A stretch of 34,020 nt of DNA, taken from NCBI GenBank assembly GCA_030645535.1, contig JAUSNM010000004.1, positions 1-34,020 on the forward strand. Direction: 5' to 3'. The stretch is from Gallionella sp. (lineage in GTDB: Bacteria; Pseudomonadota; Gammaproteobacteria; Burkholderiales; Gallionellaceae). The notes below the pieces were generated by a model, which was given only the letters and a program-made list of their open reading frames with translations, was not told where the DNA came from and made no database searches. A program made the translations under genes and the position numbers. Of this stretch, positions 2,147-32,741 are shown one piece after another; positions within the stretch are counted from its first letter, which is position 1; each line of letters begins with the position of its first letter.

Positions 2147-2914
2147 TTATAATTTTGCATGTTGCTTCGACTCGAAGTGTTGCTGTAAACCATGGATCAG
2201 GTTTTGCGCCAGTTCAGCCTGGAGTTCGCTGATGCCGGCCGTGATGCCGAGTTCCACGCATTGCGTGACGCGCAGCCCGGCATAGCCGCAGGGGTTGATG
2301 TGGCTGAACGGAGCGAGGTTCATATCCACGTTGAGCGCCAGGCCGTGATAGCAGCAGCCGTGTTTGATTTTCAGGCCCAGGGATGCGATTTTTGCGTCGT
2401 TGACATATACGCCGGGCGCGTCCACGCGTCCGAAAGCTGCCACACCGTATTCTCCGAGCAAGTCCACCACGGCCTGTTCCATCAGGGTGACCAGTTCGCG
2501 CACGTTTATCTTCCAGCGGCGCAGGTCGAGCAGCAGGTAAGCGACGATCTGGCCGGGGCCGTGGTAGGTAATCTGTCCGCCGCGATCAATTTTCACAACC
2601 GGGATGTCGGTCGGGTTGAGCAGATGTTCGGGCAAACCCGCCAGGCCTTGCGTGTAAGTGGGCGGGTGCTGCACCAGCCATATTTCATCGCGCGTCTCGG
2701 GCGTACGATCAGTGGTGAATTTCTTCATCGCCTCCCAGGTCGGTTGATAGTCAACCAGGCCCAAGGTGTGTATAACAGGATTCAGGATTCGGGATTCAGG
2801 ACTCAGGATCTCTGATTGAGGATTCTGGATTCTGGATTCAGTATTCAGGGGCTGCGCGGCTTGGATATTCACGCCTGAATCCTGCATCCTGCATCCTGAT
2901 TCCTGCTTTTTCAT
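2147..2914 (-). CDS. lipB: Octanoyl-ACP:protein octanoyltransferase with repeat-encoded N-terminal extension
   Basis: Transfers octanoate from acyl carrier protein to lipoyl domains, the step before LipA. Family signatures are RGGQITYHGPGQIV (residues 111-124), K175 in AKIASLGLKI, and catalytic C209 in INPCGYAG. From the ATG at 2914 the protein is 255 residues, about 45 more than usual: homologous sequence starts only at residue 47 (VIHTLGLVDYQPTW). The extra segment is translated from 7-bp tandem repeats at 2774-2908 and reads as heptapeptide units ESRIQNP, QSEILSP, ESRILNP. The ATG at 2914 overlaps the DUF493 stop (ATGA), supporting it as the start. Alternatives are ATG at 2887, or TTG near residue 51, which would skip the repeat. 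The catalytic core is intact. Confidence 0.93.
   Translation of the reverse strand: MKKQESGCRMQDSGVNIQAAQPLNTESRIQNPQSEILSPESRILNPVIHTLGLVDYQPTWEAMKKFTTDRTPETRDEIWLVQHPPTYTQGLAGLPEHLLNPTDIPVVKIDRGGQITYHGPGQIVAYLLLDLRRWKINVRELVTLMEQAVVDLLGEYGVAAFGRVDAPGVYVNDAKIASLGLKIKHGCCYHGLALNVDMNLAPFSHINPCGYAGLRVTQCVELGITAGISELQAELAQNLIHGLQQHFESKQHAKL
2774..2908. repeat. Heptanucleotide arrays in inverted arms within the lipB 5' coding region
   Basis: On the plus strand eleven exact-period 7-bp units (TTCAGGA family) run 2774-2850, then 23 bp of unrelated sequence, then five units of the opposite orientation (CCTGCAT/CCTGAAT family) at 2874-2908. The arms are partly complementary, so the lipB message could fold into a long imperfect hairpin near its start. 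The same CCTGAAT unit recurs at 28941-28968. Because 7 is not a multiple of 3, the array encodes a heptapeptide repeat after every three units. Confidence 0.9.
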
Positions 2915-3204
2915 AGCACCATCTTTACCAGCGGGTGATCGCATAACTCCTGATAAACCGCATCGAGTTGTTTGCGCGAGGTGGCGCGTATCGTGCAGGT
3001 CAGGCTGATGTATTTCGCGGTTTTGCTGGCGCGCATCTCCATGCTGGCGGCGACAAAATCCGGGTCGTGTCGGGTGACGACTTCCAGCACGCATTGCGCA
3101 AAGTCGGGGTGCTGGGATCCGAAAATCTTGAGCGGAAAGTCGGAAGGGTATTCGACCAGGCTCTCAGACTCGGGAATCACGGGCATTTCAGGTGTTTTTT
3201 TCAT
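2911..3204 (-). CDS. DUF493 (YbeD-like) protein
   Basis: A 97-residue member of the DUF493/YbeD family, small ACT-like alpha-beta proteins that in many proteobacteria sit directly before lipB. Recognisable parts are YPSDFPLKIFG and the C-terminal region ending LYDHPLVKMVL-like (here LCDHPLVKMVL). The family has been linked to lipoate metabolism mostly by its genomic position; a biochemical role is not established. It overlaps both neighbours by 4 bp (ATGA): the aminotransferase upstream and lipB downstream, so the four proteins are probably translated as a coupled set. Confidence 0.92.
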   Translation of the reverse strand: MKKTPEMPVIPESESLVEYPSDFPLKIFGSQHPDFAQCVLEVVTRHDPDFVAASMEMRASKTAKYISLTCTIRATSRKQLDAVYQELCDHPLVKMVL

Positions 3205-4073
3205 TTGGCACGCATCACGTCACGTTTAAATTCTTGATATAACTGATAAATTTTATTGTACATCGGCCCGGGCTTCGCTGCTCCAACCGGTTTCCCGTCG
3301 AGATGGGTAATGGCCATCACTTCACGGGTGCTGGAGGTGAGCAGCAGTTCGTCGGCAGCGAAGACTTCAGCGGCGGTAATTTTTCGCACCTGATGCACAA
3401 TGCCATGAGCTTCGGCGATTTCCAGTATCACGTCGTAGGTGATGCCGGGCAGCATCAGGTTGTCTTTCATTGGTGCTAACAGCGTGCCGTTTTTGACGAC
3501 AAATATGTTGCTTGCCGCACCCTCGGTCAGGAAAGCATTCTCGCAGGCTACTGCGGGGCGGATCAGAACGGTCTCAGCGCAGCCTGCATCCACTGCCATT
3601 TGGCGCAGCAGCACGTTGGGCAGCAGCGATATGGCTTTGATGTCGCAGCGCAGCCAGCGGTTATCCTCTGCCGTGACTGCACACACACCGCTGGCGAGCA
3701 ACTCAGGCGCAGGCGTGAGCAATGGATTGCTCATCACAAATACGGTGGGCGGCACTTTCGGGGCAGGGAAGGCGTGGTCGCGTTTAGCAGCGCCACGGGT
3801 GATGTGCAGGTACAGGTATTGGTCTTCAGGCGCGTTGCGCGCGATCAGCTCAACAATGATCGCCGTCCATTCGGAAACGCTGTGCGGATTGGCCAGGCGT
3901 ATGCCATCCAGGCTGTGTTGCAGGCGCTGCAGGTGTTCTTCAAGGCGGAAAGCACGACGCGAATAAACCGGGATGACTTCATACACCCCGTCACCGAAGA
4001 TGAAGCCGCGATCCAGCACGGAAATCGTAGCTTGCTCTATCGGCAGGTATTGCCCGTTCAGGTAGATCGTCAT
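3201..4073 (-). CDS. dat: D-amino-acid aminotransferase (PLP fold class IV)
   Basis: PLP-dependent transaminase of fold type IV, probably interconverting D-alanine/D-glutamate with their keto acids, which suits its place after a peptidoglycan carboxypeptidase. The start shows LDRGFIFGDGVYEV (residues 20-33), typical of class IV. K146 in CDIKAISLLPNVL matches the PLP-binding lysine of Bacillus D-amino-acid transaminase. 290 residues, normal length. ATG at 4073 is chosen over 4088 because AGGAG lies 6-7 bp upstream of it and family homology begins there. It lies 24 bp after dacC and overlaps DUF493 by 4 bp. Branched-chain or aminodeoxychorismate-lyase activity is a less likely alternative. Confidence 0.88.
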   Translation of the reverse strand: MTIYLNGQYLPIEQATISVLDRGFIFGDGVYEVIPVYSRRAFRLEEHLQRLQHSLDGIRLANPHSVSEWTAIIVELIARNAPEDQYLYLHITRGAAKRDHAFPAPKVPPTVFVMSNPLLTPAPELLASGVCAVTAEDNRWLRCDIKAISLLPNVLLRQMAVDAGCAETVLIRPAVACENAFLTEGAASNIFVVKNGTLLAPMKDNLMLPGITYDVILEIAEAHGIVHQVRKITAAEVFAADELLLTSSTREVMAITHLDGKPVGAAKPGPMYNKIYQLYQEFKRDVMRAK

Positions 4074-4097
4074 AAGGTTCTCCTGCATGCGCCCATT

Positions 4098-5249
4098 TTA
4101 CAAAGGGCTGTATTTCTGTACCAGCAATCGTATGCTATCCCAGCCGCGCGAAAACACGTTTGCCAGGGTCACGCTATCCAGCGCGACCAGGGGGAATTCT
4201 GCGTAGGGTTTTCCCGCCAGAGAGAGTTTGAGCACACCTAATTGCTGGCCTGACGTAATCGGTGACAGGATGGGCTGATGCGTTTCGATGGTAGCCTTGA
4301 GCTGTGCAAACTGCCCCTTGGGTATGGTCAGGAACACGTCTTGCCGGAAGCCCAGGTCGAGGTGGCTTTCCGTGCCTTTCCAGACACGTATCCGGGTGAC
4401 GGGTTGGCTGTTTTGGTAGAGGCGCACCGCATCGAAGTTCTGGAAACCATAGTTGAGCAGCTTCTGGCTGTCGGCGGCGCGCTGGGTGTCGGAATCCGCC
4501 CCCAGTATCACTGAAATCAGGCGGCGTTTGTCGCGTTTTGCGGAACCCACCAAGCAGAATCCGGCGGTTTCAGTGTGTCCGGTCTTCAGTCCATCGGCGT
4601 AGGGATCCAGCCATAGCAGGCGGTTGCGATTGGCTTGCGTGACATTGTTGAAAGTGTAATCGCGCAGGCCAAACAGCGGATAGTGTTCGGGATAGTCGCG
4701 CACCAGCGCTGCCGCCAGAATTGCCATGTCGTAGGCGCTGCTGTAATGCTGCGCACCCGGCATGCCGACCGGATTGGTGAAGTGCGTGTTGTTCATGCCC
4801 AAACGCTGCGCTTCCGTGTTCATCTTCTCAACAAAGGCAGCCTCGGAGCCTGAGATGCTGGCGGCGAGGGTGTTCGCCGCATCGTTGCCGGATTGCACAA
4901 TCAGGCCATGCAACAGTTCATCAACCGTCACCGTCTGTCCGGGTTTTAGCAGCATGCGCGATTCGCCGCTGGTATTTCTTGGCGCATCAAGCGGCACGAT
5001 GAGGCTTTGATCCAGCTTGAGCGTGCCCTGTTTGATGGCGGAGAACGTCAGGTAGGCCGTCATCATTTTGGTTAATGACGCAGGTTCCAGGCGTGCATTG
5101 GCATTTTGACCCAGCAAAACCTGATTGCTGGAAAAATCGTACAGCAAATAGGCGCGCGCGCTGAGAGCAGGCGGCTCCGGCAGTTGTACGGGCAGAGCGT
5201 AGCTCGCTGCGGATAGCAGCAAACTCAAAAGGGACAGGATAGCTTTCAT
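4098..5249 (-). CDS. dacC: D-alanyl-D-alanine carboxypeptidase (PBP5/6 type)
   Basis: Penicillin-binding serine peptidase that trims the terminal D-Ala from peptidoglycan stem peptides in the periplasm. An N-terminal signal peptide (about residues 1-18) precedes the S11 peptidase domain with the three active-site motifs S58-L-T-K61, S120-G-N122 and K222-T-G224. The C-terminal PBP5_C beta domain ends in an amphipathic helix (NVFSRGWDSIRLLVQKYSPL) that anchors PBP5 homologues to the inner membrane. 383 residues, normal. It is the first gene of the operon leading to lipA; a candidate -10 hexamer lies 26 bp upstream. Pairing with a D-amino-acid transaminase is common in betaproteobacteria. The choice of dacC over dacA as symbol is not certain. 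Confidence 0.95.
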   Translation of the reverse strand: MKAILSLLSLLLSAASYALPVQLPEPPALSARAYLLYDFSSNQVLLGQNANARLEPASLTKMMTAYLTFSAIKQGTLKLDQSLIVPLDAPRNTSGESRMLLKPGQTVTVDELLHGLIVQSGNDAANTLAASISGSEAAFVEKMNTEAQRLGMNNTHFTNPVGMPGAQHYSSAYDMAILAAALVRDYPEHYPLFGLRDYTFNNVTQANRNRLLWLDPYADGLKTGHTETAGFCLVGSAKRDKRRLISVILGADSDTQRAADSQKLLNYGFQNFDAVRLYQNSQPVTRIRVWKGTESHLDLGFRQDVFLTIPKGQFAQLKATIETHQPILSPITSGQQLGVLKLSLAGKPYAEFPLVALDSVTLANVFSRGWDSIRLLVQKYSPL

Positions 5250-5275
5250 GATTGCGTGAGTTGTAACGATGGCAG

Positions 5276-5281
5276 ATTATA
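5276..5281 (-). promoter_or_regulatory. Candidate -10 element upstream of dacC
   Basis: A perfect TATAAT on the minus strand, 26 bp before the dacC start, in the 142-bp gap after the HDOD gene. No good -35 hexamer is found at 16-18 bp, so support is limited to the -10 and the position. Confidence 0.3.
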
Positions 5282-11195: not shown

Positions 11196-11196
<1 letters not shown>

Positions 11197-14626: not shown

Positions 14627-14631
14627 ATGCA

Positions 14632-14666
14632 GACGTAAGTCGTTAGACGCTAGGCTCTAGTTGTCG
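14632..14666. repeat. Heptanucleotide array after the CobD-like gene
   Basis: Five units of exactly 7 bp (GACGTAA, GTCGTTA, GACGCTA, GGCTCTA, GTTGTCG) begin 5 bp after the stop codon. A complementary array (TAACGAC type) lies at 14838-14872 next to the convergent permease gene. The same family recurs at 32592-32741. Confidence 0.75.
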
Positions 14667-14730
14667 CTGCACGACTTCTGTTGTCTGTCATCTGCTGTGA
14701 GGGAAGCTAGGGAAATGCTGAACAAATCAT

Positions 14731-14822
14731 CCGTTCGCCCTGAGCTTGTCGAAGGGTTTTCGTAACAATATGATTGTTATGAATTTAATCTGATCATGGT
14801 TCGACAGGCTCACCACGAACGG
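14731..14822. repeat. Palindromic interspersed repeat (CCGTTCG...CGAACGG type)
   Basis: The ends are inverted copies: CCGTTCGCCCTGAGCTTGTC followed by GAAGGG on the left, and TTCGACAGGCTCACCACGAA followed by CGG on the right, with a 43-bp AT-rich middle. The sequence is of a very common proteobacterial intergenic repeat type containing the GAGCTTGTCGAA core. A second copy lies at 17433-17549. Confidence 0.8.
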
Positions 14823-14837
14823 ATTAAATCAGTGGCA

Positions 14838-14872
14838 GCCTAGTCGTTGCCAACTAACGACTAGCTACTGCT
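14838..14872. repeat. Heptanucleotide array at the 3' end of the permease gene
   Basis: Five 7-bp units (GCCTAGT, CGTTGCC, AACTAAC, GACTAGC, TACTGCT) end 2 bp before the stop codon of the permease gene at 14875. TAACGAC within it is the complement of GTCGTTA in the array at 14632-14666, so the two convergent genes carry oppositely oriented copies. Confidence 0.7.
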
Positions 14873-14874
14873 TT

Positions 14875-16074
14875 TCACTCCGTTCGCAACGCCTCTACCG
14901 GGTCCAGTCTTGCCGCGCGCCGTGCTGGCATCACGCCGGCGGCTAAGCCGATACTGATGGCGCTGAGTTCTGCAAGGACTGCAAACAGCCAGGGCGTATG
15001 CACCGGCAGGGCCGGGATGAACAGATGCAAACCCTGGGCGATACCCACGCCTAACGCGAGGCCTGCCAGTCCCCCCAGCGCCGACAGCAGCATCGCCTCG
15101 CCCAGGAACAGCGTCAGCACCTGACTCTCGCGCGCACCCAGCGCGCGCAGCAGGCCGATTTCGGCTGTGCGCTCGGTGACGGCCATGGTCATGATGGTCA
15201 GAATGCCGACGCCGCCCACCAGCAGCGATATTCCGCCCAGTGCGCCGACCGCGAAGGTGATCACATCCAGCACAGAACCCAGCACTTCGAGGGCTTTTTC
15301 CTGCGGGACCAGCGTGAAGTCCTCGCGTCCGTGGCGATCGATGAGCAGCGTTGTGATGGAGCGCAGCACGCTTTGCAGATCGGCGCCTGATTTGTAGCTC
15401 AAATGGATTTCCATCAGCCCCGGACGGTTGAACAGTTCCAGCGCGCGGGCGGCGGGAATATATACGGTGTCGTCCAGATCGAAGCCCAGCATCTGCCCTT
15501 TGGCTTCCATCACGCCGATCACCCGGTAGCGTTGCCCGCCGATACGCAAATAACTGCCGAGCGGGTTTTGTCCGGCAAACAATTCCTGACGCACCTTCGA
15601 GCCTAACACCACCAGCGCGCGCGCCTGGGTCGGATCCTCGTCGGGCAGAAAACTGCCGGTCTGCACAAGGCTGGCCATCACGCGGGGCAGGTCGTGCCCC
15701 CCGCCGATTACCATGGTGCGGCGCGTCTTGCCGTTAAAGCGCACCTCGGCATTGCCCGACACGCTGGGATCGGCATACTCGACATTCGGCAAGCGACGCA
15801 AGGCCTGTGCATCCTCGATGGAAATCGTCTTGACCGAACCGAAGATGCCGACGTTTCCGCCCTGCGTCTGCGTCTTGCCGGGCTGGATAGAGATCAGATT
15901 GGTGCCGAACTGGGAAAATTCGGCCAGCACGAACTGATGCAGCCCTTCGCCTATGGAGGTGAGCAGAATCACCGCCGTGATGCCGATGGCAATTCCAAGA
16001 CCCGTCAGGAAGCTGCGCATCCGGTAGGCCAGGAAGCTGGAGGTGGTCAGGCGGATCAGGTCAGGAAACAACAT
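14875..16074 (-). CDS. MacB-type ABC transporter permease (second)
   Basis: A 399-residue inner-membrane permease of the MacB/FtsX type. From the ATG at 16074 it begins MLFPDLIRLTTSSFLAYRMR then SFLTGLGIAIG, the typical first membrane segment; a large periplasmic MacB_PCD domain (about 40-240) and an FtsX domain with three membrane segments follow, with the coupling region TERTAEIGLLRALGAR and ending ARRAARLDPVEALRTE. Together with the ATPase, another permease and the adaptor it would form an exporter powered from the cytoplasm. The two permeases suggest a heterodimer. Just before its start lies the broken N-terminus of another permease (16061-16219). Confidence 0.92.
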   Translation of the reverse strand: MLFPDLIRLTTSSFLAYRMRSFLTGLGIAIGITAVILLTSIGEGLHQFVLAEFSQFGTNLISIQPGKTQTQGGNVGIFGSVKTISIEDAQALRRLPNVEYADPSVSGNAEVRFNGKTRRTMVIGGGHDLPRVMASLVQTGSFLPDEDPTQARALVVLGSKVRQELFAGQNPLGSYLRIGGQRYRVIGVMEAKGQMLGFDLDDTVYIPAARALELFNRPGLMEIHLSYKSGADLQSVLRSITTLLIDRHGREDFTLVPQEKALEVLGSVLDVITFAVGALGGISLLVGGVGILTIMTMAVTERTAEIGLLRALGARESQVLTLFLGEAMLLSALGGLAGLALGVGIAQGLHLFIPALPVHTPWLFAVLAELSAISIGLAAGVMPARRAARLDPVEALRTE

Positions 16075-17432: not shown

Positions 17433-17549
17433 GCCGTTCGTGGTGAGCCCTTCGACGCCGTTCATCCTGAGCCTGTCGAAGGAGAAAATGGCGCTCAGGA
17501 CAGGCTTGTCGAACCATGAACGACCCTTCGACAGGCTCAGGGCGAACGG
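17433..17549. repeat. Second palindromic interspersed repeat, inside the ABC exporter operon
   Basis: The element starts CCGTTCGTGGTGAGCCCTTC and ends GGCTCAGGGCGAACGG, with internal copies of GAGCCTGTCGAAGG and GACAGGCTTGTCGAACC in both orientations. It is of the same type as 14731-14822 but longer, with at least four core units. It lies between the ATPase and the first permease, directly in front of the permease start. Confidence 0.8.
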
Positions 17550-19424: not shown

Positions 19425-19452
19425 ATGTATCCCCTGCAAAGTTTCATTCAAC

Positions 19453-19501
19453 AGCTACAAGCTACGAGCTACTCGCTTCGTGCTCCTCGCTGCGTGCTGC
19501 A
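19453..19501. repeat. Heptanucleotide array encoding the end of the GGDEF-EAL protein
   Basis: Seven 7-bp units (AGCTACA, AGCTACG, AGCTACT, CGCTTCG, TGCTCCT, CGCTGCG, TGCTGCA) run from the intergenic gap into the gene. The stop codon (19462-19464) and the last twelve residues (AARSEEHEASSS) are read from it. Confidence 0.8.
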
Positions 19502-21846
19502 AGCCATTTCTCGAAATCTTCCGGCGGAACAGGCCTGGAGTACAGGTAGCCTTGCGCATAATCGCAGTCGGCACGGATGAGCAGGTCGCGTTGCTGCTCG
19601 GTTTCCACGCCTTCGGCGATGACCTTTAAACCCAGCTTGTGCGCCATAACGATGATCGCTTCGCATAAAGCCATGTCATCAGAATCCTGCTCCAGATTGC
19701 GCACGAAAGACTGGTCGATCTTGAGATAGTCGATATCGAATTTCTTCAGATAGGACAAAGATGAATAGCCGGTACCGAAGTCGTCGATGGAAACCTGAAT
19801 GCCGGCATCACGAAGCGCGACCAATTTGTTATTGATACGCTGATCCGCATTCAGCAGCAGCCCTTCCGTGATCTCGAACACGAAATTCTTGCCAACAAGG
19901 TTATTTTCGTGCAAATCCTCGATAAACGAATCCACACTGCCACTATCGTTTTCATCCATGAACTCGACGGGTGATTTGTTTATGCTGATCTGGAATCCGC
20001 CGGGCGTGAGACTGTCCAAACGACGGCACCAGACGATTGATTCTTTGCGCACCCATGCACCGATATCGATGATCAGTCGGGTTTTTTCCGCCAGCGGGAT
20101 GAATTCATACGGGCTGACCATGCCGCGCACCGGATGCAGCCAGCGTATCAGCGCTTCTGCCTTGTTTACCCGATTTGTCGCTAACTCGACGATGGGCTGA
20201 AAATAAACTCTGAACTGATTTTCAGTCAGGGCGCAGCGCAAGTCGTTAGTGAGGCGCAAGCGTTTCTGCGCGTCTTCCTGTAGCGATGCGGTGAAATGGC
20301 TGAAGCGGTTGCGGCCATTGTCCTTGGCAGCGTACATCGCCTGATCGGCATTTTTCATCATGTTGTCGATGTCGCTGGCATCAGACGGATATAAGGTGAT
20401 GCCCAGACTGGCCGATATATAGACGACTTCGTTTTGCAGCTGAAAGGGTTCAGTCAGTTTCAGGATGATTTTCTGAGCGATGTTGTCGACCTGGCTGGCA
20501 TTGGCAAGCTGCGGCAATACGACCGAAAATTCATCGCCGCCCAGGCGTGCCACCGTATCCGATTTGCGTACACATTCTACGATGCGAGCTGCGGCCAGCT
20601 GCAGCAGCAGATCGCCCATGTCGTGGCCCAGCGTGTCATTGACTTCCTTGAACTGGTCCAGGTCGATCAGCAGCAGTGCCAGCGGCAGACCTGAGCGATC
20701 CGTTTTTTTGATTTCCTGAGACAGGCGGTCGCGCAACATGTCGCGGTTGGGCAGGTCGGTAAGTGCATCGAAGTTCGCCCGCTTCCAGAGCAGCGCTTTG
20801 GAGCGTTTGACAGACTGGAGATAGATTGCAGAGCCGACAGTCGCCAGGATCAGCACACTGCCGAATGCGCCCAGCAATAGCGTGAACCAGAAATAATCCC
20901 GGCGCAACGAGGACATCGCTGAAATTTCGTTCTCGATATACACCGTCAGGCCATATTCGTACAGTTCATGGGTCGCGAGAACTTGCGGGATCGTGTCGTT
21001 GTGGATCAGCAGCAGAGCAGGAAATCGGCTGTCTTTCCAGGGCTGGATTTTAAGTGCGGGAAAAGTGCTTCTCTGGTAACGCGCCAATCTATCCTGTTCG
21101 GATACGTAGGAAATGGCCGCATCCGGCAGTGCAAGCATCTCCAGTTGTTTGTCGCGTGCAAGTATGATGACGCCATTGGAATCCGCCACAAATGCGTCAA
21201 GATGCTGGGTCAAAAAGGACAGGTGGGGAACGTCGATCTTGGCAACCACTGCACCCGTGAATTTTCCGTCTATGATCACGGGGGTTGCAAAATACAGTCC
21301 GGGGATATGGGTGGTTTTTCCCACCGCATATTGCATGCCGCGCTGACCGGTTTTATTGCGTTTGAAAAAATCACGTTCAGCGTAATTGTTGCCGATGGGG
21401 CTGCCCTCCGTGCCCCAATTGCTGGCAGCCACGCAGTCGCCTGCTGCATTCAATATGAAGATAAGGTCGGCATTGAGGCTCTTTTTCGCCAGCTTCAGAT
21501 AGCTGCTTAAATCGCTTAGTCCGGGATCATTTGTCCATTTTTTGCGCCGCTCGTCGAGCGGCAGGGTCGACGGTAATGCGTCAAATCTCGAGGTGGCTGC
21601 TCTGACACGTAACAGTTCGGATAACAGGTCGGGGATGCCGTGCAGGTGATTCAGATTGCGCACGATGCTGTCAGTCAGGTCGCTGACGCGTTCCTGAGCG
21701 ATGCTGGTTTGCTGATTGATCAATTCGTTGGCATCGGATACGTATGCGCGTGCCGTGAAGTACCAGGACGATGCGTTCCAGAGGACGAGCAGAAATGCTG
21801 TGACAAGCACGGCCGGGTTGTTTCTGAACTTTATTATATTAATCAA
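19462..21846 (-). CDS. Cache-GGDEF-EAL cyclic-di-GMP enzyme
   Basis: A 794-residue membrane signalling protein. A membrane segment (about 12-32), a periplasmic dCache-like sensor region (about 35-305) and a second membrane segment (about 315-340) precede a GGDEF domain with intact RLGGDEFSVVL and the RxxD inhibitory site five residues before it (RKSD), and an EAL domain with EALIRW, DDFGTGYSSLSYLKKFDIDY and EGVETEQQ. Both catalytic motifs are intact, so it could make or degrade c-di-GMP. The start codon appears to be TTG (21844-21846): an in-frame stop lies seven codons upstream and no ATG is near. The C-terminal 12 residues come from a 7-bp array. Confidence 0.93.
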   Translation of the reverse strand: MINIIKFRNNPAVLVTAFLLVLWNASSWYFTARAYVSDANELINQQTSIAQERVSDLTDSIVRNLNHLHGIPDLLSELLRVRAATSRFDALPSTLPLDERRKKWTNDPGLSDLSSYLKLAKKSLNADLIFILNAAGDCVAASNWGTEGSPIGNNYAERDFFKRNKTGQRGMQYAVGKTTHIPGLYFATPVIIDGKFTGAVVAKIDVPHLSFLTQHLDAFVADSNGVIILARDKQLEMLALPDAAISYVSEQDRLARYQRSTFPALKIQPWKDSRFPALLLIHNDTIPQVLATHELYEYGLTVYIENEISAMSSLRRDYFWFTLLLGAFGSVLILATVGSAIYLQSVKRSKALLWKRANFDALTDLPNRDMLRDRLSQEIKKTDRSGLPLALLLIDLDQFKEVNDTLGHDMGDLLLQLAAARIVECVRKSDTVARLGGDEFSVVLPQLANASQVDNIAQKIILKLTEPFQLQNEVVYISASLGITLYPSDASDIDNMMKNADQAMYAAKDNGRNRFSHFTASLQEDAQKRLRLTNDLRCALTENQFRVYFQPIVELATNRVNKAEALIRWLHPVRGMVSPYEFIPLAEKTRLIIDIGAWVRKESIVWCRRLDSLTPGGFQISINKSPVEFMDENDSGSVDSFIEDLHENNLVGKNFVFEITEGLLLNADQRINNKLVALRDAGIQVSIDDFGTGYSSLSYLKKFDIDYLKIDQSFVRNLEQDSDDMALCEAIIVMAHKLGLKVIAEGVETEQQRDLLIRADCDYAQGYLYSRPVPPEDFEKWLAARSEEHEASSS

Positions 21847-24050: not shown

Positions 24051-24507
24051 GTTTTTTCTCCATAAAGCTTTCCCATATCATCAAGATGGCCCCGCAGGTA
24101 ATCGCGGAATCGGCAAGATTGAAGGCGGGGAAATAATGTTCATTCCAGTGGAATGCCAGGAAGTCAATCACGTAACCATATGCGATACGATCGATCAGGT
24201 TGCCGAGCGCGCCGCCCAGTATCAGACTCAGCGCCAGCGAGAAGATGATCTCACGGGAATGCCTGCGCAATAACCAGGTTATAGACACGGCAGCTACGAC
24301 GGCAATGGCGGTGAACAACCAGCGCTGCATGCCGCCTGCATTGCTTAAAAAACTGAAAGCTGCCCCCGCGTTATGCAACCGTGTCAGATCAAACACGCTG
24401 AGCACCTTGATGCTTTCAAAATTAGTAAAGTTATTGATAATCAATAACTTGCTTGTCTGATCGAGTGCGATGACCAGACCGGCGAGCCCCAGCCAGCGTT
24501 TAAGCAT
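24031..24507 (-). CDS. lspA: Lipoprotein signal peptidase (SPase II)
   Basis: Inner-membrane aspartyl peptidase that cleaves signal peptides of prolipoproteins. The 158-residue protein has four membrane segments and the family motifs LDQTSK (near residue 16), [22 protein letters not shown] and FNLADSAI with the two catalytic aspartates (GNLIDR and NLAD). The ATG at 24507 is preferred over 24531, since GAGG lies before it and the extra 8 residues are not conserved. It overlaps the stop of ileS by 8 bp and runs 20 bp into ispH. Confidence 0.97.
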
Positions 24508-27313
24508 AGCGCCTCGATTCACCTTCGCCATACAGGTTGCTCACGCAGCGACCGCACAGGGTCGGATGTTGTTCATCTGTACCCACATCTTCACGGTAAT
24601 GCCAGCAGCGCTCGCACTTGTCGTGCAGGCTGACCGACACGTCGATGTGTTGATCTTCCACGCCGGCTACCCGGTGCACGCTGGCACGCGAGGTGATAAA
24701 CACCAGGCGCAGATCATCGCCTAAACGCGCCAACACCTCATAATCATCCCCGGATGCGAACACATCCACCTCGGCGGCAAGCGCCGAGCCTATCATCCCG
24801 GCGCTGCGCGCTTCTTCGAGTTGCTTGTTGACGCGGGCGCGCCAGGCGTCGATGGTCAGCCATGCGCTGATTGCATCCCCTTCCAGTTGTGCATCCGGCA
24901 GGTCATGCCATGCACCCTCGAACACGCTCACATCGTTCGTCCCGTTCAATATCGTCCAGACTTCTTCGCCGGTGAAACTCAGCACAGGCGCGATCAATCG
25001 TGTCAGTGCCTGGGTGATGTGATACAGCGCGTTCTGCGCGGAACGGCGTGCGCCTGAATTCTCGCCTGCGGTGTACAGGCGGTCTTTCAGTATGTCGAGG
25101 TAGAAACCGCCCAGCGTTTCAGAGCAGAATCCCAGCAACTTTTGCACTGCCAGATGGAACTCGTAATGCTCATAATCGGCGCGCACACCGTCTTGCAGCT
25201 TTTGTGTCATATACAGCGCGTAGCGGTCGATCTCCAGCCAATTTTCGACCGGCAGGGCATCTCGCGCCACGTCAAAATCTGAAATGTTCGCCAACAAAAA
25301 TTTTAATGTGTTGCGGATGCGGCGATAACTTTCCACCACGCGTTTGAGGATTTCATCCGAGATGGTCAGCTCACCGGAGTAGTCGGTCGAGGCTGTCCAC
25401 AGGCGCAAAATGTCTGCGCCCAGCGTGTCGAATATCTTTTGCGGCGCGATCACGTTGCCCTTGGATTTGGACATCTTGTGGCCGTTGCCGTCCACCACGA
25501 AACCGTGCGTGAGCAGGGCGTTGTAAGGCGCGCGGCCATTGATTGCGCAGCCGGTGAGCAAGGAGGACTGGAACCAGCCGCGATGCTGGTCGGAACCTTC
25601 CAGATACAGATCCGCGGGTGAATTCAATTCTGAGCGTCTTTGCAATACCGACGCATGGGTGGTGCCGGAATCGAACCACACATCCAGCGTGTGCGTGAGT
25701 TTCTTGTAATGCTCCGCATCAGCGCCGATCAGATCGACCGAATTCAGGCTGAACCAGGCTTCGATGCCGTCCTGCTCGACCCGCTGCGCGACCTGCTCCA
25801 GCAGTTCAGGCGTTCTGGGATGCAACTCGCCCGTCTCCTTATGCACGAAGAACGGCATCGGCACGCCCCAGTTGCGCTGGCGCGATACGCACCAGTCCGG
25901 GCGATTTTTGATCATCGCCTCCAGACGCGCGCGTCCCCAGCTTGGGAAGAATGCGGTCTCATCGACAGCCTTGTTCGCCAGATCGCGCAGCGTCGCTCCC
26001 TTCTCGCTTTCCCCTTCTCCCTTCTCAGTTTGTGTCATGCCGATGAACCACTGAGGAGTGGAACGGAAAATGATCGGGGTCTTGTGGCGCCAGCAATGCG
26101 GATAACTGTGCTGCACTTTCTTCAGGCACAACAAATGGCCGGAGGCTTCCAGCGCCTGCAACACGATGTCGTTGCCCTTCCACACAAACACGCCCGCCAG
26201 CGCCACATCGCCCACGGGCGGCACGGCAGCCAGGAACTTGCCGTCATCGCCCACCGGGTTGTCGGTCGGCAGACCGTATTTTTGGCCGACGAAGTAATCG
26301 TCCAGTCCGTGCGCAGGGGCGGTATGCACAAGGCCCGTACCGGAATCCGCGGTGACATGCTCGCCGCAGATGACGGGCACGATGCGGTCCTGGAACGGAT
26401 GTTGCAGCGGCAGCAAATCGAGCGCCGCGCCACGGCAAATGCCGACTGTCTCGCCGCTCAACTCGTAGCGCTCCAGGCAACTGTCCATCAATTCGGAGGC
26501 GAGCAGCAAATAACCCTTATCTGTTTTGACCAGACTGTATTCGAAATCGGGGTGCACGCTCACCGCCTGATTGGCGGGCAAGGTCCACGGCGTAGTGGTC
26601 CAGATCACCGCAGATACTTTTGCCGAGCCAGGCAGCGATACGCCGAAGGCGCGAGCAAGCGCGATGTTGTCTTTTACTTCGAACGCCACGTCGATCGCGC
26701 TTGAGGTCTTGTCCTCGTATTCGACCTCAGCTTCGGCCAGAGCGGACTGACAATCCAGACACCAGTTCACCGGCTTGTAGCCCTGATACAGATAGCCGCG
26801 ATCATGGATGTGACCTATGGATCGCATGATGTCGGCCTCGACCTTGTAGTCCATGGTCAGATACGGTCTATCCCAGTCGCCCAGCACGCCTAAGCGGATG
26901 AAGTCCTTCTTCTGCCGTTCGACCTGCTCAGCCGCATAGCTGCGGCACAGTTTGCGGAACTCGGCGGGCGGGATCGCCTTGCCGTGCTTCTTTTCGACCA
27001 TCAACTCGATCGGCAGTCCGTGGCAATCCCAGCCCGGCACGTAAGGTGCATCAAAACCCGAGAGCGTCTTGCTCTTGATGATGATGTCCTTGAGGATCTT
27101 GTTCACCGCATGGCCGATGTGGATGTCGCCATTCGCATACGGCGGGCCGTCGTGCAAAATGAATTTTGGCAGTCCCAGTTTCGCTGCGCGTATTTTCTGA
27201 TAGCGCTGCGCCTCCTGCCATCGGGAGAGCATTTGCGGCTCGCGTTTGGCCATGTCGCCGCGCATCGGAAAAGCCGTGTCGGGTAAATTCAGTGTTTTCT
27301 TATAATCAGTCAT
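24500..27313 (-). CDS. ileS: Isoleucyl-tRNA synthetase
   Basis: Charges tRNA-Ile; 937 residues from the ATG at 27313, which overlaps the ribF stop by 8 bp. HIGH (65-68, [16 protein letters not shown]) and KMSKSKGN (near 600) are intact. The bacterial C-terminal zinc finger CERCWHY and CGRC is present. Between QWFIGMTQ and [10 protein letters not shown] an insertion of about 10 residues ([12 protein letters not shown]) is read from a 7-bp-period array (25997-26031), near residues 428-439; relatives that I remember lack it. The insertion is in frame and lies in a loop-like Glu/Lys/Gly stretch, so it is probably tolerated. The gene runs directly into lspA. Confidence 0.97.
25997..26031. repeat. 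Heptanucleotide array inside ileS
   Basis: Five units of exactly 7 bp on the plus strand: TCCCTTC, TCGCTTT, CCCCTTC, TCCCTTC and TCAGTTT. On the coding strand they read as GAGAAGG units. The 35-bp array is translated as part of an insert near residue 430 of IleS. Confidence 0.7.
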
Positions 27314-28232
27314 GTTGTTCGAACCATTTCTTTGCATTTTCTACATCCAACGCAATTTGTCGCGTCAGTGCGCCCACATCGGGAAATTTCTGTTCATCGC
27401 GGCGTTTTTGCAGGAATTCAACGCGCAACGTCTTTCCGTAAATATCTTGTCCAAATTCAAACAGATGCACTTCCAGTATCGGTTTTGCATCGTGTTTCAG
27501 CGTAGGGCGAACCCCCAGGCTGGCGACGCCTTGCAAAATGCCCAGGCCTGCCACATGCGCCTCGACCACGAAGATGCCGGACAGCGGCGGGCGGTTGTGT
27601 TTTAAGTGGATGTTCGCAGTCGGGTAGCCCAGCTTTTTACCTACGCCATCGCCATGCACCACGCGACCGCTGATGCTGTAAGTACGCCCGAGATAATCAT
27701 GTACCCGGCGCATTTGTCCGGCAGCCAGGGCCGCACGCACCGCCGTGCTGGAAATCCGCACGCCGCCATGCATCACGCTCGGTACTGCCCGCACCTCGAA
27801 ACCATGCTGCCTGCCTGCCGTCTCCATCAGTGCGAAATCGCCTGCGCGTCCGCTGCCGAAACGGAAGTCATCGCCTATCAGCACGAATTTAACTGATAGT
27901 TTTTCATGCAGGGCGTGAATGAAATCCGTAGCCGTCATCTGTGCAAACCGGTCATTGAAGCGGCACACATGCACGCGGTCTATGCCCAGCCGGGATAAAA
28001 GTTCCAGCTTTTCACGCAGGCTGCTCAGTCGGACTGGTGCCGATTGAGGTGCGAAAAATTCGCGCGGATGCGGTTCAAAAATCACCGCAGCCGTCGGCAG
28101 TCCGCGCGCCTTGGCCGATGTTTTCAGTTCGTTCAGCAAGGCCTGGTGACCCAGGTGTACACCATCGAAGTTTCCGATAGTGAGGGCGACAGGCTGGGTA
28201 TCAGGGGAGTAGAGTCCGCGTAGTATCTGCAT
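27306..28232 (-). CDS. ribF: Bifunctional riboflavin kinase/FAD synthetase
   Basis: Converts riboflavin to FMN and FMN to FAD. The 308-residue protein has the nucleotidyltransferase start [14 protein letters not shown] (near 20-33) and ATP-binding ISSTAVR, then the riboflavin kinase domain with [15 protein letters not shown] and a C-terminal [13 protein letters not shown] segment. Length and motifs are normal. It overlaps ileS by 8 bp and is the first gene of a coupled ribF-ileS-lspA-ispH-thiO set. The gap to the divergent gene upstream (28233-28405) should hold its promoter, but no clear hexamers were found. Confidence 0.97.
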
Positions 28233-28405: not shown

Positions 28406-28927
28406 ATGACATCCAACATGCAACAAACTTCCCTTGATGTACTTGAACCATTAGGCGCCGGCGAGATTTCGATGGGTGAAATCCGCAGCATGCTTGATGG
28501 CACGCAGATGTTCAGAGATTTTGAGTGGTCACAGATTGAAGCACTCTCAGCTTACATTGAGTTGTATCGCGCAGCGCCCGGAACCGTGTTGTTTCGCGAA
28601 GGTGATCAAGGTGACTTCATGTGTGTCGTGTTGCAAGGCCGTCTCGATATTCGCAAGAAAGATGCACAGCATGACGACAAAATGGTCGCTACCGTTTATG
28701 CGGGGCGCAGTCTTGGCGAGATGGCAATGGTCGACAGCGAAGCAAGATCAGCCACTGCAGTGGTGACAGAGCCGGCTGTTTTGGCCGTTCTGACGCAGGA
28801 CAGTTTTATGTCGATCACGCACGATAAGCCGGCATTGGCGGTAAAACTGCTGCTCAAAATCTCGCAACTGATCAGCCAGCGTCTGCGCCACACCAGCGGT
28901 GTTCTGGTCGATTATCTGGAAAAATAA
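28406..28927 (+). CDS. Cyclic nucleotide-binding domain protein without output domain
   Basis: A 173-residue protein with one cyclic-nucleotide-binding domain (about 35-155). The phosphate-binding cassette AGRSLGEMAMVDSEARSATAVV is close to the consensus GxxxGExAxxxxxxRxAxxxA, with the arginine and glutamate that bind cAMP/cGMP. No helix-turn-helix or enzymatic domain is present, unlike CRP/FNR; the C-terminus is a helix (LLKISQLISQRLRHTS). It may act by protein-protein contact. ATG at 28406 is chosen over an unlikely TTG at 28316. It is divergent from ribF and convergent with the nuclease gene, with a 7-bp array between their ends. Confidence 0.87.
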   Translation: MTSNMQQTSLDVLEPLGAGEISMGEIRSMLDGTQMFRDFEWSQIEALSAYIELYRAAPGTVLFREGDQGDFMCVVLQGRLDIRKKDAQHDDKMVATVYAGRSLGEMAMVDSEARSATAVVTEPAVLAVLTQDSFMSITHDKPALAVKLLLKISQLISQRLRHTSGVLVDYLEK

Positions 28928-28940
28928 GCTGCAATATCTT

Positions 28941-28983
28941 CCTGAATCCTGAATCCTGAATCCTGAATCCTGACTCAGGATTT
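28941..28983. repeat. Heptanucleotide array between convergent genes
   Basis: Four perfect CCTGAAT units (28941-28968), a partial fifth, and then the reverse unit TCAGGAT starting at 28975. It begins 14 bp after the cNMP gene stop, and the nuclease stop codon (28975-28977) lies in the reverse unit. AATCCTGACTCAGGATT at 28966-28982 can form a hairpin followed by TT on the plus strand, so it may help end transcription. The unit is the same as in the lipB array. Confidence 0.9.
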
Positions 28984-29712
28984 TGCCGGCAGGAAATCGA
29001 TCCCGGTGCGCCTGACCAGCTCCTGATAGCTGATCGGTCGGCTCACACGGGCTTCGTCCGTGTTATCCAGCCAATTCACCCAGCTACGGCGGGTTGACGG
29101 GTCGTAGACCAGCTTGAATAAATGCTGCGGCACCCACACCCGGTTAGCGCCGATGGTGGGCGGTGTGCCGTCAAACACGGGGCCGGTAATCACGTAAACG
29201 TCACCCGCCGCGCGCATCACATATTTACGCGTTGCCTTCTCGATGCCGGCCCAGGCGCGGCGGTTATTGATTGCATACTGCGGCACCATATTGGCAAGTG
29301 AAAAACTCTGCGCCATCGACGCATCGGTTGCCATGTCGCCTGCCGGAGCCATGTGGCCGCGATCAAATCCGGAACCATGATAATCATCCAGTTCGGCGCG
29401 CTCAGCCCTTGGCAATCGGGCATCCGCGTAAAATTTATTCGTTCTCTGGTTGTTTTTAGCGTCTTGCAATATCGCATTATTGAGCCGCTCGGCGACATAG
29501 ACAGGCGTACGACTTTTGCCCGAATGCAACACTGCAAACGCGTTAAAACAAAGGGCGCGCGACTGCAATGCTTCCTGGTGCCGGATGACCGGCGGGTTGC
29601 CGTTGGCAAACACCTCGCGGCATAGCTTGAAATCATCACTTGCCGCAAATGCGTTGCCGAATGACATGGCAACGACGGCTAAACCTAACCCTAACCTTCT
29701 AATCAATATCAT
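28975..29712 (-). CDS. Secreted DNA/RNA non-specific endonuclease
   Basis: A 245-residue protein with a signal peptide (about 1-23, GNAFAAS) and the beta-beta-alpha-metal nuclease motif DRGHMAPA, with its catalytic histidine, followed by the conserved Asn region (MVPQYAINNRRAWAGIE). The family (NUC1, Serratia nuclease, EndA) cuts DNA and RNA without sequence preference and needs Mg. Export to the periplasm or outside fits nutrient or DNA-uptake roles. The frame ends PAKS with the TGA formed from the 7-bp array. No cognate inhibitor gene is nearby. Confidence 0.93.
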   Translation of the reverse strand: MILIRRLGLGLAVVAMSFGNAFAASDDFKLCREVFANGNPPVIRHQEALQSRALCFNAFAVLHSGKSRTPVYVAERLNNAILQDAKNNQRTNKFYADARLPRAERAELDDYHGSGFDRGHMAPAGDMATDASMAQSFSLANMVPQYAINNRRAWAGIEKATRKYVMRAAGDVYVITGPVFDGTPPTIGANRVWVPQHLFKLVYDPSTRRSWVNWLDNTDEARVSRPISYQELVRRTGIDFLPAKS

Positions 29713-29733
29713 CAGCCTGTATTTGAATATTAT

Positions 29734-29775
29734 AGGTAGCCAGTAGCCAGTAGCTACTACCAGCTACAGCTATTA
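29734..29775. repeat. Heptanucleotide array ending at the stop of the FabMG-like gene
   Basis: Six 7-bp units (AGGTAGC, CAGTAGC, CAGTAGC, TACTACC, AGCTACA, GCTATTA) lie between the nuclease start and the stop codon of the FabMG-like gene. The stop (29773-29775) lies in the last unit. Confidence 0.85.
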
Positions 29776-31092
29776 TGCGTTGTGCATCGCGTTCAGCTGT
29801 TTGGCGATGATGTCGTGATTCAGCCAAAGCACGGGGCCTGCCGGATTGGAGGTCTCATAAAACATCAACGGCCCGGTACCTTCCAGTACCAGCGCGCTCA
29901 ATACACCTACAACCAGTTCACGGCGATCTACATGCATCTGGATGATTTCATCCGACGTGCCTATCATCAAGTCTGCCAGGGCTTCCGAGTTGTCCATCGG
30001 CCAGGCCGCGAAATTCCGGAATTCTTTCATCACGGAGCTGGTGTTGTAGTCTTCGATTTTCTGCAACAGCGCTTCGAGCGTAATGCCCTCCTGTAATAAC
30101 GGCCGGCAGGCTTGCCACTGTTGTTCTGCCCACGCACCGCCATTTTCCCGTTTCAGCGCTTCAAGCAGCGGGAACAGTGAGAGCTCAACGCCTGCGAAGA
30201 TGTCGGACGAATTAGTGCGGATCTCCGGGCAGTTGTAAACGGTGGCTACAACGCCATTCGCCCAGGCGGCCTGGGCCACATTTTCCAGACGCATCTTGGC
30301 ACGGCCCTGCGTGTAGTTGCTGTAGGTTTGCCACTGGTATTTGCCGTCGATCAGGATTTCGGTGCCGTGATAGCCGTAGGCGGTGTAGCGCACCTTGCCG
30401 CCTGTCGCATCCAGTCTTGCGCGAATAGCAGCGCTGCCGTCGATCAGGTACTGGAAGGTGTTGGCCGTGACTTCGTCGAAATTCATCAGGATCAGTTTGC
30501 CCAGATCGCTGTCCAGCAGGGCGCGGGAGGACATGAAACGCTCGCCCCGGCCTTTGTAGATGCGGTTGGCGATCGCCAGGAACACTTTTACCTTCGGGAT
30601 GCCGCCTGCCATGGTATGGGCAAAGAAGGCGTTGGCCCCGTCCGGGATCATGCGATCCAGTTCGCTCATGACAAGGGCTACCGAATCCTTGAAGCGTTTT
30701 ACGCCTACTTCGCGACATTTCTCGATATGCGCCCAGTCGAGTTTATCTTCCTGCCAGCTTTTCAGCGTCATGCCGGCCAGCAGTTCGGTAGGAGTGGGTT
30801 CACCTGCCGGTGCGTCCAGATCGAATCCGGCCATCAGCGGCACGTTGATGATGCGTCCGCCCAGGTTGGCTTCGGCTTCTGTCAGTTCTTCACTGGTCAG
30901 TGCGCGCAGGGCGTTGTTTTCATCGCGGCGACCGACCGTGATGCCGATGATGGTCATGCCGGATTTCTTCGCCTCGTTGATCAGGCCGTTGGCATAGCCC
31001 CGGCCAAACAGTTCGCCGAACAGCACGAAGACATCGCCTTTGCGAAAAATGTTGGTTCGGGGGATTTCTCTGAGCGAAATGGGTGCATTCAT
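29773..31092 (-). CDS. SDR-fold reductase, probably enoyl-ACP reductase-like (FabMG family)
   Basis: A 439-residue protein with a Rossmann-type cofactor motif G26-x3-G30-x-G32 (FGELFGRGYANG) and a later stretch YSNYTQGRAKMRLENVAQAA in which a Y and K are spaced Y-x8-K, as in the FabV enoyl reductases; the second Tyr gives Y-x5-K. These point to an enoyl-reductase-like short-chain dehydrogenase. I recall a FabMG family found by triclosan-resistance screening that matches this size; that name is tentative. The protein has a long C-terminal part of unknown role. It lies 37 bp downstream of tldD on the same strand, apart from any fatty-acid gene cluster. The ATG at 31092 has GGAG 9 bp upstream. 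Confidence 0.5.
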   Translation of the reverse strand: MNAPISLREIPRTNIFRKGDVFVLFGELFGRGYANGLINEAKKSGMTIIGITVGRRDENNALRALTSEELTEAEANLGGRIINVPLMAGFDLDAPAGEPTPTELLAGMTLKSWQEDKLDWAHIEKCREVGVKRFKDSVALVMSELDRMIPDGANAFFAHTMAGGIPKVKVFLAIANRIYKGRGERFMSSRALLDSDLGKLILMNFDEVTANTFQYLIDGSAAIRARLDATGGKVRYTAYGYHGTEILIDGKYQWQTYSNYTQGRAKMRLENVAQAAWANGVVATVYNCPEIRTNSSDIFAGVELSLFPLLEALKRENGGAWAEQQWQACRPLLQEGITLEALLQKIEDYNTSSVMKEFRNFAAWPMDNSEALADLMIGTSDEIIQMHVDRRELVVGVLSALVLEGTGPLMFYETSNPAGPVLWLNHDIIAKQLNAMHNA

Positions 31093-31129
31093 AATTGTGA
31101 CTCCGATATACAATTCTAAAAAATACGAT

Positions 31130-32584
31130 TTAAACCGTGCCGCCGACTGTCAGTCCGTCGATGCGCACGGTCGGTTGGCCGACGCCGACCGGCACGCTCT
31201 GGCCTTCCTTGCCGCAGGTGCCGACGCCCGGATCGAGCGCCATGTCGTTGCCTATCATCGAGATGCGGGTCAGCACGTCAGGGCCGTTGCCGATCAGCGT
31301 CGCACCTTTCACCGGATGCGTGATCTTGCCGTCTTCGATCATGTAGGCTTCGGCGGTGGAGAAGACGAACTTGCCGCTGGTGATGTCCACCTGGCCGCCG
31401 GCGAAATTCACCGCATACAGGCCATGCTTTACCGAAGCGATGATCTCCGCAGGATCTTTGTCGCCGCCCAGCATATAGGTGTTGGTCATGCGCGGCATCG
31501 GGATATGTGCGTAGGATTCGCGGCGGGCATTGCCCGTCACCGGCACACCCATCAGGCGGGCGTTGAGCGTGTCCTGCAAATAGCCTTTGAGGATGCCGTT
31601 CTCGATCAGCGTGGTGCACTGAGTGGGGTTGCCCTCATCGTCCATTTGCATCGAACCGCGCCGGTCGGCCAGCGTGCCGTCATCCACCACGGTCACGCCC
31701 GCTGAGGCGACGCGTTCGCCGATGCGGCCTGCGAACGCCGAGCTGCCCTTGCGGTTGAAGTCGCCCTCCAGTCCATGACCGATTGCTTCATGCAGCAGGA
31801 TGCCCGGCCAGCCGTTGCCCAGCACCACGGTCATATTGCCGGCAGGAGCGGGTGCGGCATCCAGATTGACGACCGCCTGATGCACCGCAAGGGCTGCATA
31901 TTTATGCAGCATCGCATCGTCGAAATAGGCGTAATTGAAGCGTCCGCCACCACCCGCCGAACCTTGTTCGCGGCGTCCGTTGCTCTCGATAATCACGGTG
32001 ATCGACAAGCGCACTAATGGTCTGATGTCGGCATTCATCAGGCCGTCGCTGCGCGCGACCATCACTACTTCGTATTCGCCGGCTAAACCCGCCATGACCT
32101 GCACCACGCGCGGATCAAGCGCGCGCGCATAGCCTTCGATGCGTTCGAGCATGGCGACCTTGTCGGCATCCTTGAGGCTTGCGATCGGATCGTTCGGCAG
32201 ATAGATGTCGCGCCGTGAGCCGCGATGCAGCATCGGCACGGTCTGTGTGCCGCCGCTGGAAGCGATGGCGCGTGTGGCATTGGCCGCACTTTGCAGCGCA
32301 TTCAAGCTGATATCGTCGGAATAGGCAAACGCGGTTTTTTCGCCGCTCACCGCCCGTACGCCGACACCCTGATCGATGCTGAAGCTGCCGGATTTGACGA
32401 TACCTTCCTCAAGAGACCAGCTCTCGGCCCGGCTGTACTGGAAATACAAGTCCGCATAATCGAGACGGTGCGCCAGCATGCTGTTGAACACCTGCTCGAT
32501 CTGAAGTGTTTCAATCAGGTAGGGCGCGAGCAGGATTTGCTGTGCGGTGGCGAACAGGGTGTCAGGTGAGGCGGATAGGGTCAT
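31130..32584 (-). CDS. tldD: Metalloprotease TldD
   Basis: A 484-residue TldD/PmbA (modulator of DNA gyrase) protease subunit. The zinc motif HExxxH is seen in [14 protein letters not shown], with an upstream domain and the downstream [15 protein letters not shown]. TldD works with TldE (PmbA) as a heterodimer that degrades unfolded peptides and matures microcins; tldE is usually elsewhere in the chromosome, as it must be here. It is in the typical yhdP-nitrilase-tldD order of betaproteobacteria and gammaproteobacteria. 148 bp separate it from the nitrilase gene, filled by a 7-bp array. Confidence 0.96.
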
Positions 32585-32591
32585 ATTTAGC

Positions 32592-32741
32592 CGTTAGACG
32601 TGAGTCGTTAGTTATTAGTTAAATCAAAATCAGTCGTTAGATGTTGGTGGTTGGTTTAATTCAGTTATTAGTCGTTAGACGTTAGTTGGTATTGTCGCTT
32701 CGCGGCATTAACTAAATACTAAGGTCTAGCGTCTAGCAACT
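32592..32741. repeat. Long heptanucleotide array between the nitrilase and tldD genes
   Basis: The 150 bp hold many 7-bp units of the CGTTAGA/CGTTAGT/TATTAGT family, in partial register, with the reverse family AGCGTCT/AGCAACT at the nitrilase end (32721-32741). The nitrilase stop codon (32733-32735) lies in the array. The family is the one found at 14632-14666 and 14838-14872. Confidence 0.75.

Follow-up and report, generated by a model that had tools for sequence, protein, structure and literature searches.

The 34,020-nucleotide contig JAUSNM010000004.1 (C45), taken whole as the window of this study, belongs to the 2.68 Mb, 86.6% complete draft genome of a Gallionella sp. (GCA_030645535.1, here G000) and carries tandem arrays of 7-bp units, mostly at the junctions between its genes (Table 1). 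An original prediction had described at least eight such loci in the window, drawn from several sequence families and marking gene 3′ ends. A period-7 scan (self-match over 28 positions, thresholds ≥19/28 and ≥18/28) recovers six of the eight at ≥18/28 and upholds the several unit families; the remaining two, 14632–14666 and 14838–14872, fail array detection at this threshold and are degenerate inverted arms. Locus 25997–26031 is not at a gene end but lies within an IleRS gene.

Table 1. Heptamer arrays and inverted arms in the window
Feature	Position	Strand	Composition and context
Inverted heptamer pair	2776..2908		CAGGATT-type arm 2776–2848, 25-bp gap, AATCCTG/CATCCTG-type arm 2874–2908
Degenerate TAGTCGT-type arms	14629..14871		Arms 14629–14646 and 14854–14871, 78% complementary
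Lone array	19453..19501	−	GCTACNN on + strand; gene sense strand TAGCTCG/GAAGCGAG
Intragenic heptamer array	25996..26031	−	Inside IleRS-type tRNA synthetase gene 24500–27337; not a gene end
AATCCTG ×5 array with short CAGGATT return	28940..28983		Junction of cyclic nucleotide (cNMP)-binding-domain gene (stop 28927) and nuclease gene
Short inverted pair GTAGCCAGTAGCCAGTAGC / GCTACnnGCTAC	29734..29775		Directly after FabMG-like stop (29773)
Degenerate inverted pair, TAGTCGT/TAGACGC-type	32587..32741		Fills TldD/PmbA-like / nitrilase-family spacer

The first inverted pair separates a DUF493 gene (stop 2911) from an LplA/LipB-like gene (assigned by Pfam); its arms 2776–2800 and 2874–2898 are 88% complementary, and 2765–2912 folds with a z-score of −6.8. 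The degenerate arms of the second locus lie just inside the stops of a convergent pair, a CobD-like gene (14626) and a MacB/FtsX-like permease gene (14875), with a palindrome resembling repetitive extragenic palindromic (REP) elements between them (14729–14824, 84%), and 14834–14880 folds with z −5.3. Two REP-like palindromes built on inverted GTTCGCCCTGAGCnnGTCGAA pairs occur in the window, at 14733–14820 and 17460–17547 (four matches against 0.02 expected), the first of them between the heptamer arms of this junction. The lone array includes the 3′-terminal codons of a GGDEF-EAL gene together with its stop (19462) and extends to an HlyD-like gene; the GGDEF-EAL C-terminus is conserved in the window, the array-coded residues and stop are gained relative to G014, and the orthologs in G014 and G001 terminate without an array. 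The IleRS array encodes, in frame, a charged loop that is 5 residues longer than in G001. At the cNMP/nuclease junction the nuclease-gene stop (28975) lies inside the array and 28925–28995 folds with z −2.8. The FabMG-like junction (29725–29785, z −2.3) carries an array in the window and none at the orthologous junction of G001, and the last array contains the nitrilase-family stop (32733) and folds with z −3.4 (32590–32738). An Rfam scan of the window at gathering scores returned a tRNA only. Four stops had been placed inside arrays: those at 28975, 32733 and 19462 are, and that at 29773 is inside by the originally proposed bounds and 5 bp outside by trimmed bounds. Three further arrays had been placed just after the stops 14626, 14875 and 28927, and the repeats do begin 5, 2 and 13 bp away, but the first two are hairpin arms rather than arrays.

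Heptamer arrays exceed chance by far in both window and genome. The window holds 7 period-7 regions at ≥19/28 against a mean of 0.04 in 100 local dinucleotide shuffles, and 9 at ≥18/28 against 0.31. The excess over shuffles extends genome-wide, as predicted: a first batch of G000 sequence (413,216 bp) contains 74 regions at ≥19/28 (10 shuffles: mean 1.0, maximum 2) and 1–2 regions for each of periods 4, 5, 8, 10 and 11, and a second, fresh batch (386,773 bp) contains 58 period-7 arrays, so that 799,989 bp hold 132 arrays against 2–3 for each of those other periods. Periods 6, 9 and 12 are somewhat raised, with at least half of those arrays inside called genes. The heptamer arrays are mostly intergenic: 134 of 161 lie outside called open reading frames (ORFs) in G000 and G028, a 99% complete relative of the genus Gallionella. 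In sampled stretches G000 has 16.5 arrays per 100 kb and G028 has 7.5; five other genus members range from 0 to 2.5. Units in G000 include CAGGATT and its variants, TAGTCGT/TAGACGC, GTAGCNN, AAGGGNN, AGTGGNN, CAGTTTT, AATTGAN and others, and in some arrays the unit switches in register.

Of 300 genomes of the order, 20 contain CAGGATT repeats (18 bases, one mismatch) and 1 contains a reversed control pattern, and match counts at two mismatches range from 0 to 320 among 61 genus genomes. G003, G015 and G344–G347, of the same genus, are instead rich in matches to the reversed control unit (GGACTTA type) and thus favour other units, which suggests that different genus members favour different heptamers. 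An exact 25-base CAGGATT pattern is present in at least 118 genome stretches from many phyla and in 14 stretches of viral contigs. These other-phyla loci (118 named, 14 viral) were retrieved by the one unit CAGGATT, which therefore dominates the set; counts from them leave out 85 of 333 arrays because they lie inside long ORFs and 45 because they lack two neighbours.

We determined array position and polarity in three samples comprising 161 arrays together, the two G000 batches and G028, with genes called by our own ORF scorer, which places starts only approximately and misses some small genes. Polarity counts left out 30 of the 161 arrays (27 that were called within ORFs and 3 that lacked two neighbours) and kept 131; a first-pass set, the 74 of G000, had put 16 aside. 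At least one array was wrongly dropped from these counts: window arm 2776–2848 was lost through a mis-called start, and its partner 2874–2908 thereby appears as a lone array and a start-edge exception. In tandem spacers of G000 and G028, 49 of 109 arrays lie ≤10 bp from the upstream stop, where random placement of each array within its own spacer gives 24.9 (0 of 5,000 random runs), and 18 lie ≤10 bp from the start (24.9 expected). In convergent spacers 16 of 17 arrays lie ≤10 bp from a stop, and divergent spacers are depleted (5 arrays versus 19.6 expected by length). The predicted bias towards stop codons is therefore real. The finding of stops inside arrays is in part a matter of course, since TAG, TAA or TGA is present in many units and ends any ORF that runs into the array. 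The arrays do not mark gene 3′ ends alone: of 91 orientable arrays ≤30 bp from a gene edge, 27 are at start edges, as far as the approximate starts allow, with the same polarity there.

This polarity is the main result beyond the original prediction, which had overlooked both the inverted pairs and the start-side edges of the same polarity. Read 5′ to 3′ outward from the flanking gene, the nearest array within 30 bp is AG/G-rich in 56 cases against 8 at stops and 24 against 3 at starts. The rule holds for arrays with an inverted partner (26:1 at stops, 8:1 at starts) and for lone arrays (30:7 and 16:2). Because the AG-versus-CT orientation rule was picked after viewing the first G000 batch (25:6 and 9:1), the fresh tests are the second batch (19:2 and 6:2), G028 (12:0 and 9:0) and the other-phyla loci, where the ratios within 20 bp are 62:16 and 27:9. 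Neighbouring arrays of opposite type are ordered left-then-right in 13:0, 5:0 and 7:0 cases in the three samples and in 43:9 in the named other-phyla loci. Convergent spacers share the polarity (14:2 in the three samples, 29:6 in other phyla), and avoidance of false ribosome-binding sites is therefore insufficient as an explanation, since these spacers have no starts. General spacer composition was rejected as the cause, as array-free spacers show no consistent outward skew, and Rho utilisation sites were dropped because the sense strand right after stops is G-rich, not C-rich. A single anchor trinucleotide common to every unit was considered and set aside, as a random heptamer is likely to contain AG or CT.

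The outward strand carries 221 G against 88 C, and polarity together with inverted pairs is what has been described for the Xanthomonas repeat GGGAATC, where it was discussed in connection with G-quadruplexes (Rehm et al. 2015, PMC4692102). That the Gallionella arrays are likewise quadruplex-forming repeats is nevertheless highly improbable. Units without GG or CC make up 31 of the 96 arrays ≤30 bp from a gene edge (17 + 2 + 2 at stops, 9 + 1 at starts) and keep the polarity (17:2 at stops, 9:1 at starts), and only 18 of the 96 have GGG or CCC in their units. Lone arrays share the polarity as well, so quadruplexes are not required, and the persistence of both period and polarity as the unit is replaced removes them as a necessary cause.

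A strict 7-nt step and a polarity like that of DNA added 5′ to 3′ outward from both flanks, independent of transcription and shared by lone arrays, could also reflect a telomerase-like reverse transcriptase that adds repeats to both 3′ ends of a break before the ends are joined. We give this idea hardly any credence: no RVT_1 reverse transcriptase domain turned up in the two array-richest genomes tested, G000 (86.6% complete) and G028 (99% complete), or in three others of ten genomes searched, one RNA template fits poorly with many units per genome, and the array at a CysS-GlnS-like junction (cysteinyl and glutaminyl/glutamyl tRNA synthetase families) expanded in G000, growing from an existing one.

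An inverted partner or inner complement was detected in 54 of the 131 arrays, an undercount, as detection missed weak arms and one arm that falls in a mis-called gene. The 25 left-right elements fold with a mean z of −3.8, and 18 of them fall below −3. T-rich stretches outside the arms (≥6 T in 8, both strands) occur in 6 of 50 flanks versus 21 of 567 random spacer positions. Many CAGGATT-family hairpins of G000 pair a mainly CAGGATG arm with a CAGGATT arm, so that each unit holds one mismatch and the palindrome is imperfect. Lone arrays are no rarer than paired ones (77 versus 54) and include most of the perfect arrays (16 of 77 versus 3 of 54 paired), and both counts favour a reading in which the arrays have no function: 7-nt replication slips would survive where they cause little damage, chiefly after stops, and arms would arise by unselected fold-back copying. 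The avoidance of divergent spacers, the spread of densities among genus members (0 to 16.5 per 100 kb) and the in-frame array in IleRS point the same way. Such tolerated slippage is a real possibility and a close rival of the hairpin reading that we favour below, but outward polarity and the coordinated change of arms described next would each need an extra rule.

We compared three orthologous junctions, nitrilase-tldD, queA-tgt and nusB-thiL, using the best 30 loci each of 60, 38 and 41 matching genomes; the neighbour gene is missing in 1 (queA-tgt) and 6 (nusB-thiL) of the 30. Gene families were checked by Pfam (TGT, Queuosine_synth, NusB, AIRS, CN_hydrolase), and the AIRS-family gene at the NusB junction is one that we take to be thiL. 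The nitrilase-family/TldD spacer measures 8–37 bp and lacks an array in 12 of 30 species; in the other 18 it measures 79–203 bp, and 14 of these are heptameric by shuffle test and fall into at least three unit families (AGTGG, TAGACG and AAGGG). At all three junctions one unit gives way to another in both arms in concert, and where a species lacks arrays its spacer is often very short. The nitrilase-tldD left arm pairs better with its own species' right arm than with those of others (−26.7 versus −17.8 kcal/mol, 0 of 10,000 permutations), also among heptamer rows only (−27.7 versus −18.6, 0 of 10,000). The same own-arm excess is found at queA-tgt (8 of 10,000, n = 11) and nusB-thiL (0 of 10,000, n = 14), in sets that also contain other palindromes and 9-bp-unit arms.

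Between G028 and G000, whose proteins average 81% identity over 93 reciprocal best hits, the turnover anticipated by the original prediction is apparent: of 57 conserved junctions, 3 have a detected array in both species, 7 in one species only and 47 in neither, although the one-species-only class is over-counted, as at two junctions the other species holds a degenerate arm that the detector missed. One shared array is almost unchanged, and the NusB-ThiL junction has the same hairpin layout in both species with different units.

Other palindromes occupy the same three junctions elsewhere. Inverted arrays of 9-bp units occur in nusB-thiL, queA-tgt and nitrilase-tldD spacers of other species (loci L310, L315, L321, L287, L295 and L267), with units CAGATTACG, CACGAAAGA/CACGAAGAA and CACAGAGAA in the left-AG, right-CT order of the heptamers. 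Non-tandem palindromes that start with GTAGG and end with CCTAC, for example GTAGGATGGGTTGAGCGCAGCG... and GTAGGTCGGG..., lie at these junctions in further species (loci L306, L307, L312, L329, L320, L322, L266 and L248), and their handedness matches that of the heptamer hairpins. In G000, the loops of C20 39015–39153 and C42 23817–24001 share GGGAAGACCCTTGCGGTCTGA beside the right arm.

A mobile palindrome of REP or miniature inverted-repeat transposable element (MITE) type, moved by a transposase and leaving lone arrays as decayed remnants, would account for junctions occupied in some species and only 8–37 bp long in 12 of 30, for the other palindromes, some with 9-bp units, at the same junctions, and for the stretch shared by two loops (C20 39015, C42 23817). 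We consider this very unlikely, as the loops are otherwise mostly unalike, the unit varies from locus to locus, and the two array-richest genomes have only 1 match each to the Y1_Tnp transposase family. Matches number 5–6 in G010, G032 and G013 and 0–2 in five array-poor genomes; Y1 transposases therefore do not simply track arrays, because G010, G032 and G013 are poorer in arrays yet richer in matches.

Several known systems resemble these elements in part. Cyanobacterial short tandemly repeated repetitive (STRR) sequences comprise several heptamer units per genome, a likeness to the Gallionella arrays by description. REP elements and bacterial interspersed mosaic elements (BIMEs) are palindromic, intergenic, located after stops and rare between divergent genes, as are the Gallionella elements, whose arms differ in being 7-bp-unit arrays with no shared consensus and with units and loops that vary by locus. 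A search of the open-access literature found no paper joining Gallionella with intergenic tandem repeats.

The closest counterpart in the literature consulted is the Xanthomonas GGGAATC heptamer rather than the STRR sequences first proposed, since it combines a stop-proximal sense-strand bias with many inverted pairs (70 and 75 cases; PMC4692102). As described there, GGGAATC repeats lie on the sense strand just past stops and, immediately ahead of starts, on the non-coding strand, irrespective of ORF orientation, are rare between divergent ORFs, and occupy sites shared by sister species with altered length. The GGGAATC / GGGGA(C/T)T heptamers described there for Xanthomonas and Nostoc form few inverted pairs in Nostoc, and Calothrix is mentioned in connection with heptamers in the same source. 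Intergenic heptamers, inverted pairs, outward G-rich polarity and rarity in divergent spacers are thus already known for Xanthomonas and partly for Nostoc. Unlike GGGAATC, which is one G-rich unit (PMC4692102), Gallionella has dozens of units, some without GG or CC; G-tract units of the GGGAATC type, able to form quadruplexes, do not characterise its arrays, and replacement of the unit at the same junction with coordinated arm change goes beyond GGGAATC as described there. TAACTGA repeats of Beggiatoaceae, Cyanobacteria and Bacteroidetes are similarly intergenic heptamer direct repeats common to distant phyla, but they consist of one unit, lie mostly just upstream of start codons and include only one indirect repeat in the main genome (MacGregor 2015, PMC4679880). 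A betaproteobacterial system of this kind had been called unfamiliar, yet four Burkholderia are among the top ten genomes for 5–11 nt repeats in Mrazek 2007 (via PMC4679880), where the 7-nt slippage step was proposed to equal the polymerase contact length (via PMC4692102, PMC4679880). The SPADE survey (PMC6344855) identifies heptamers as the most abundant intergenic tandem class in prokaryotes, with 'no clear clue' on function, which lends the present arrays general relevance; they share with such long simple sequence repeats an excess of 7-nt units over chance and other periods and a mostly intergenic location. The portions of the heptamer surveys available to us (Mrazek 2007 via PMC4692102 and PMC4679880; PMC6344855) do not describe polarity or arm pairing. 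What is new here is a many-unit variant without need of quadruplexes, together with coordinated arm change.

We tentatively favour a reading of the elements as junction hairpins grown by slippage, maintained by pairing and retained at transcript 3′ ends. Short imperfect copies would be extended into arrays by 7-nt slippage, and fold-back template copying, selection for pairing or both would keep the second arm complementary. Selection may then clear arrays from promoters and retain them mainly just after stops, where the putative function is probably that of a 3′-end RNA structure, a transcript hairpin that would slow exonucleases or weakly terminate from either side. A fixed period with a changing unit, polarity at both spacer ends, pairing in a large minority of arrays, coordinated arms, the very short spacers of other species at the same junctions, density differences among genomes and the depletion of divergent spacers support this hairpin reading, as do the expanded arm at the CysS-GlnS-like junction and the T excess in the flanks.

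A number of observations weigh against it. It does not account for the step of 7 or for the G-rich outward strand in lone arrays, and the polarity persists in the 77 of 131 arrays without a detected partner, where pairing by itself is not a sufficient cause. Mean purity is equal in paired and lone arrays. The stretch between arms averages a fold z of only −0.3 over the 25 elements, and terminator cores between the arms, tried as a candidate and set aside, are present in only 2 of the 25. Of the eight pieces of the window that were folded, three do so no better than shuffles: 14628–14668 (z 0.4), 19440–19510 (z −0.7, not significant) and 25985–26035, the last of these at the IleRS array, which is intragenic and not a junction. 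In G028 alone the preference for stops over starts is weak (12 versus 7 within 15 bp in tandem spacers). Exceptions to the polarity comprise 11 of the 91 orientable arrays (outward-R), stop edges of the second G000 batch at ≤60 bp give only 19:7, and right-then-left pairs exist in other phyla (9 versus 43; 1 versus 2 in viral loci). The arm permutation tests ignore relatedness, and when they are restricted to heptamer rows the results at queA-tgt and nusB-thiL are weaker, 151 and 305 of 10,000 (n = 8 and 6), the queA-tgt rows including one (G017) that is actually a 9-bp array.

A broader explanation, which we regard as unlikely, is that many phyla share an undescribed growth of DNA in 7-nt steps with a fixed outward G-rich polarity, independent of unit, quadruplex and reverse transcriptase, and that, where arrays have come to stand on both sides of a spacer, the hairpin is recruited to transcript 3′ ends and its arms stay complementary as the unit drifts. 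The question of why the step is seven becomes testable because the genus spans 0 to 16.5 arrays per 100 kb in sampled stretches and offers orthologous junctions with and without arrays. Elsewhere in the window, a tandem 20-bp repeat of 2.2 copies lies at 440–483, just past the end (468) of the first minus-strand ORF.

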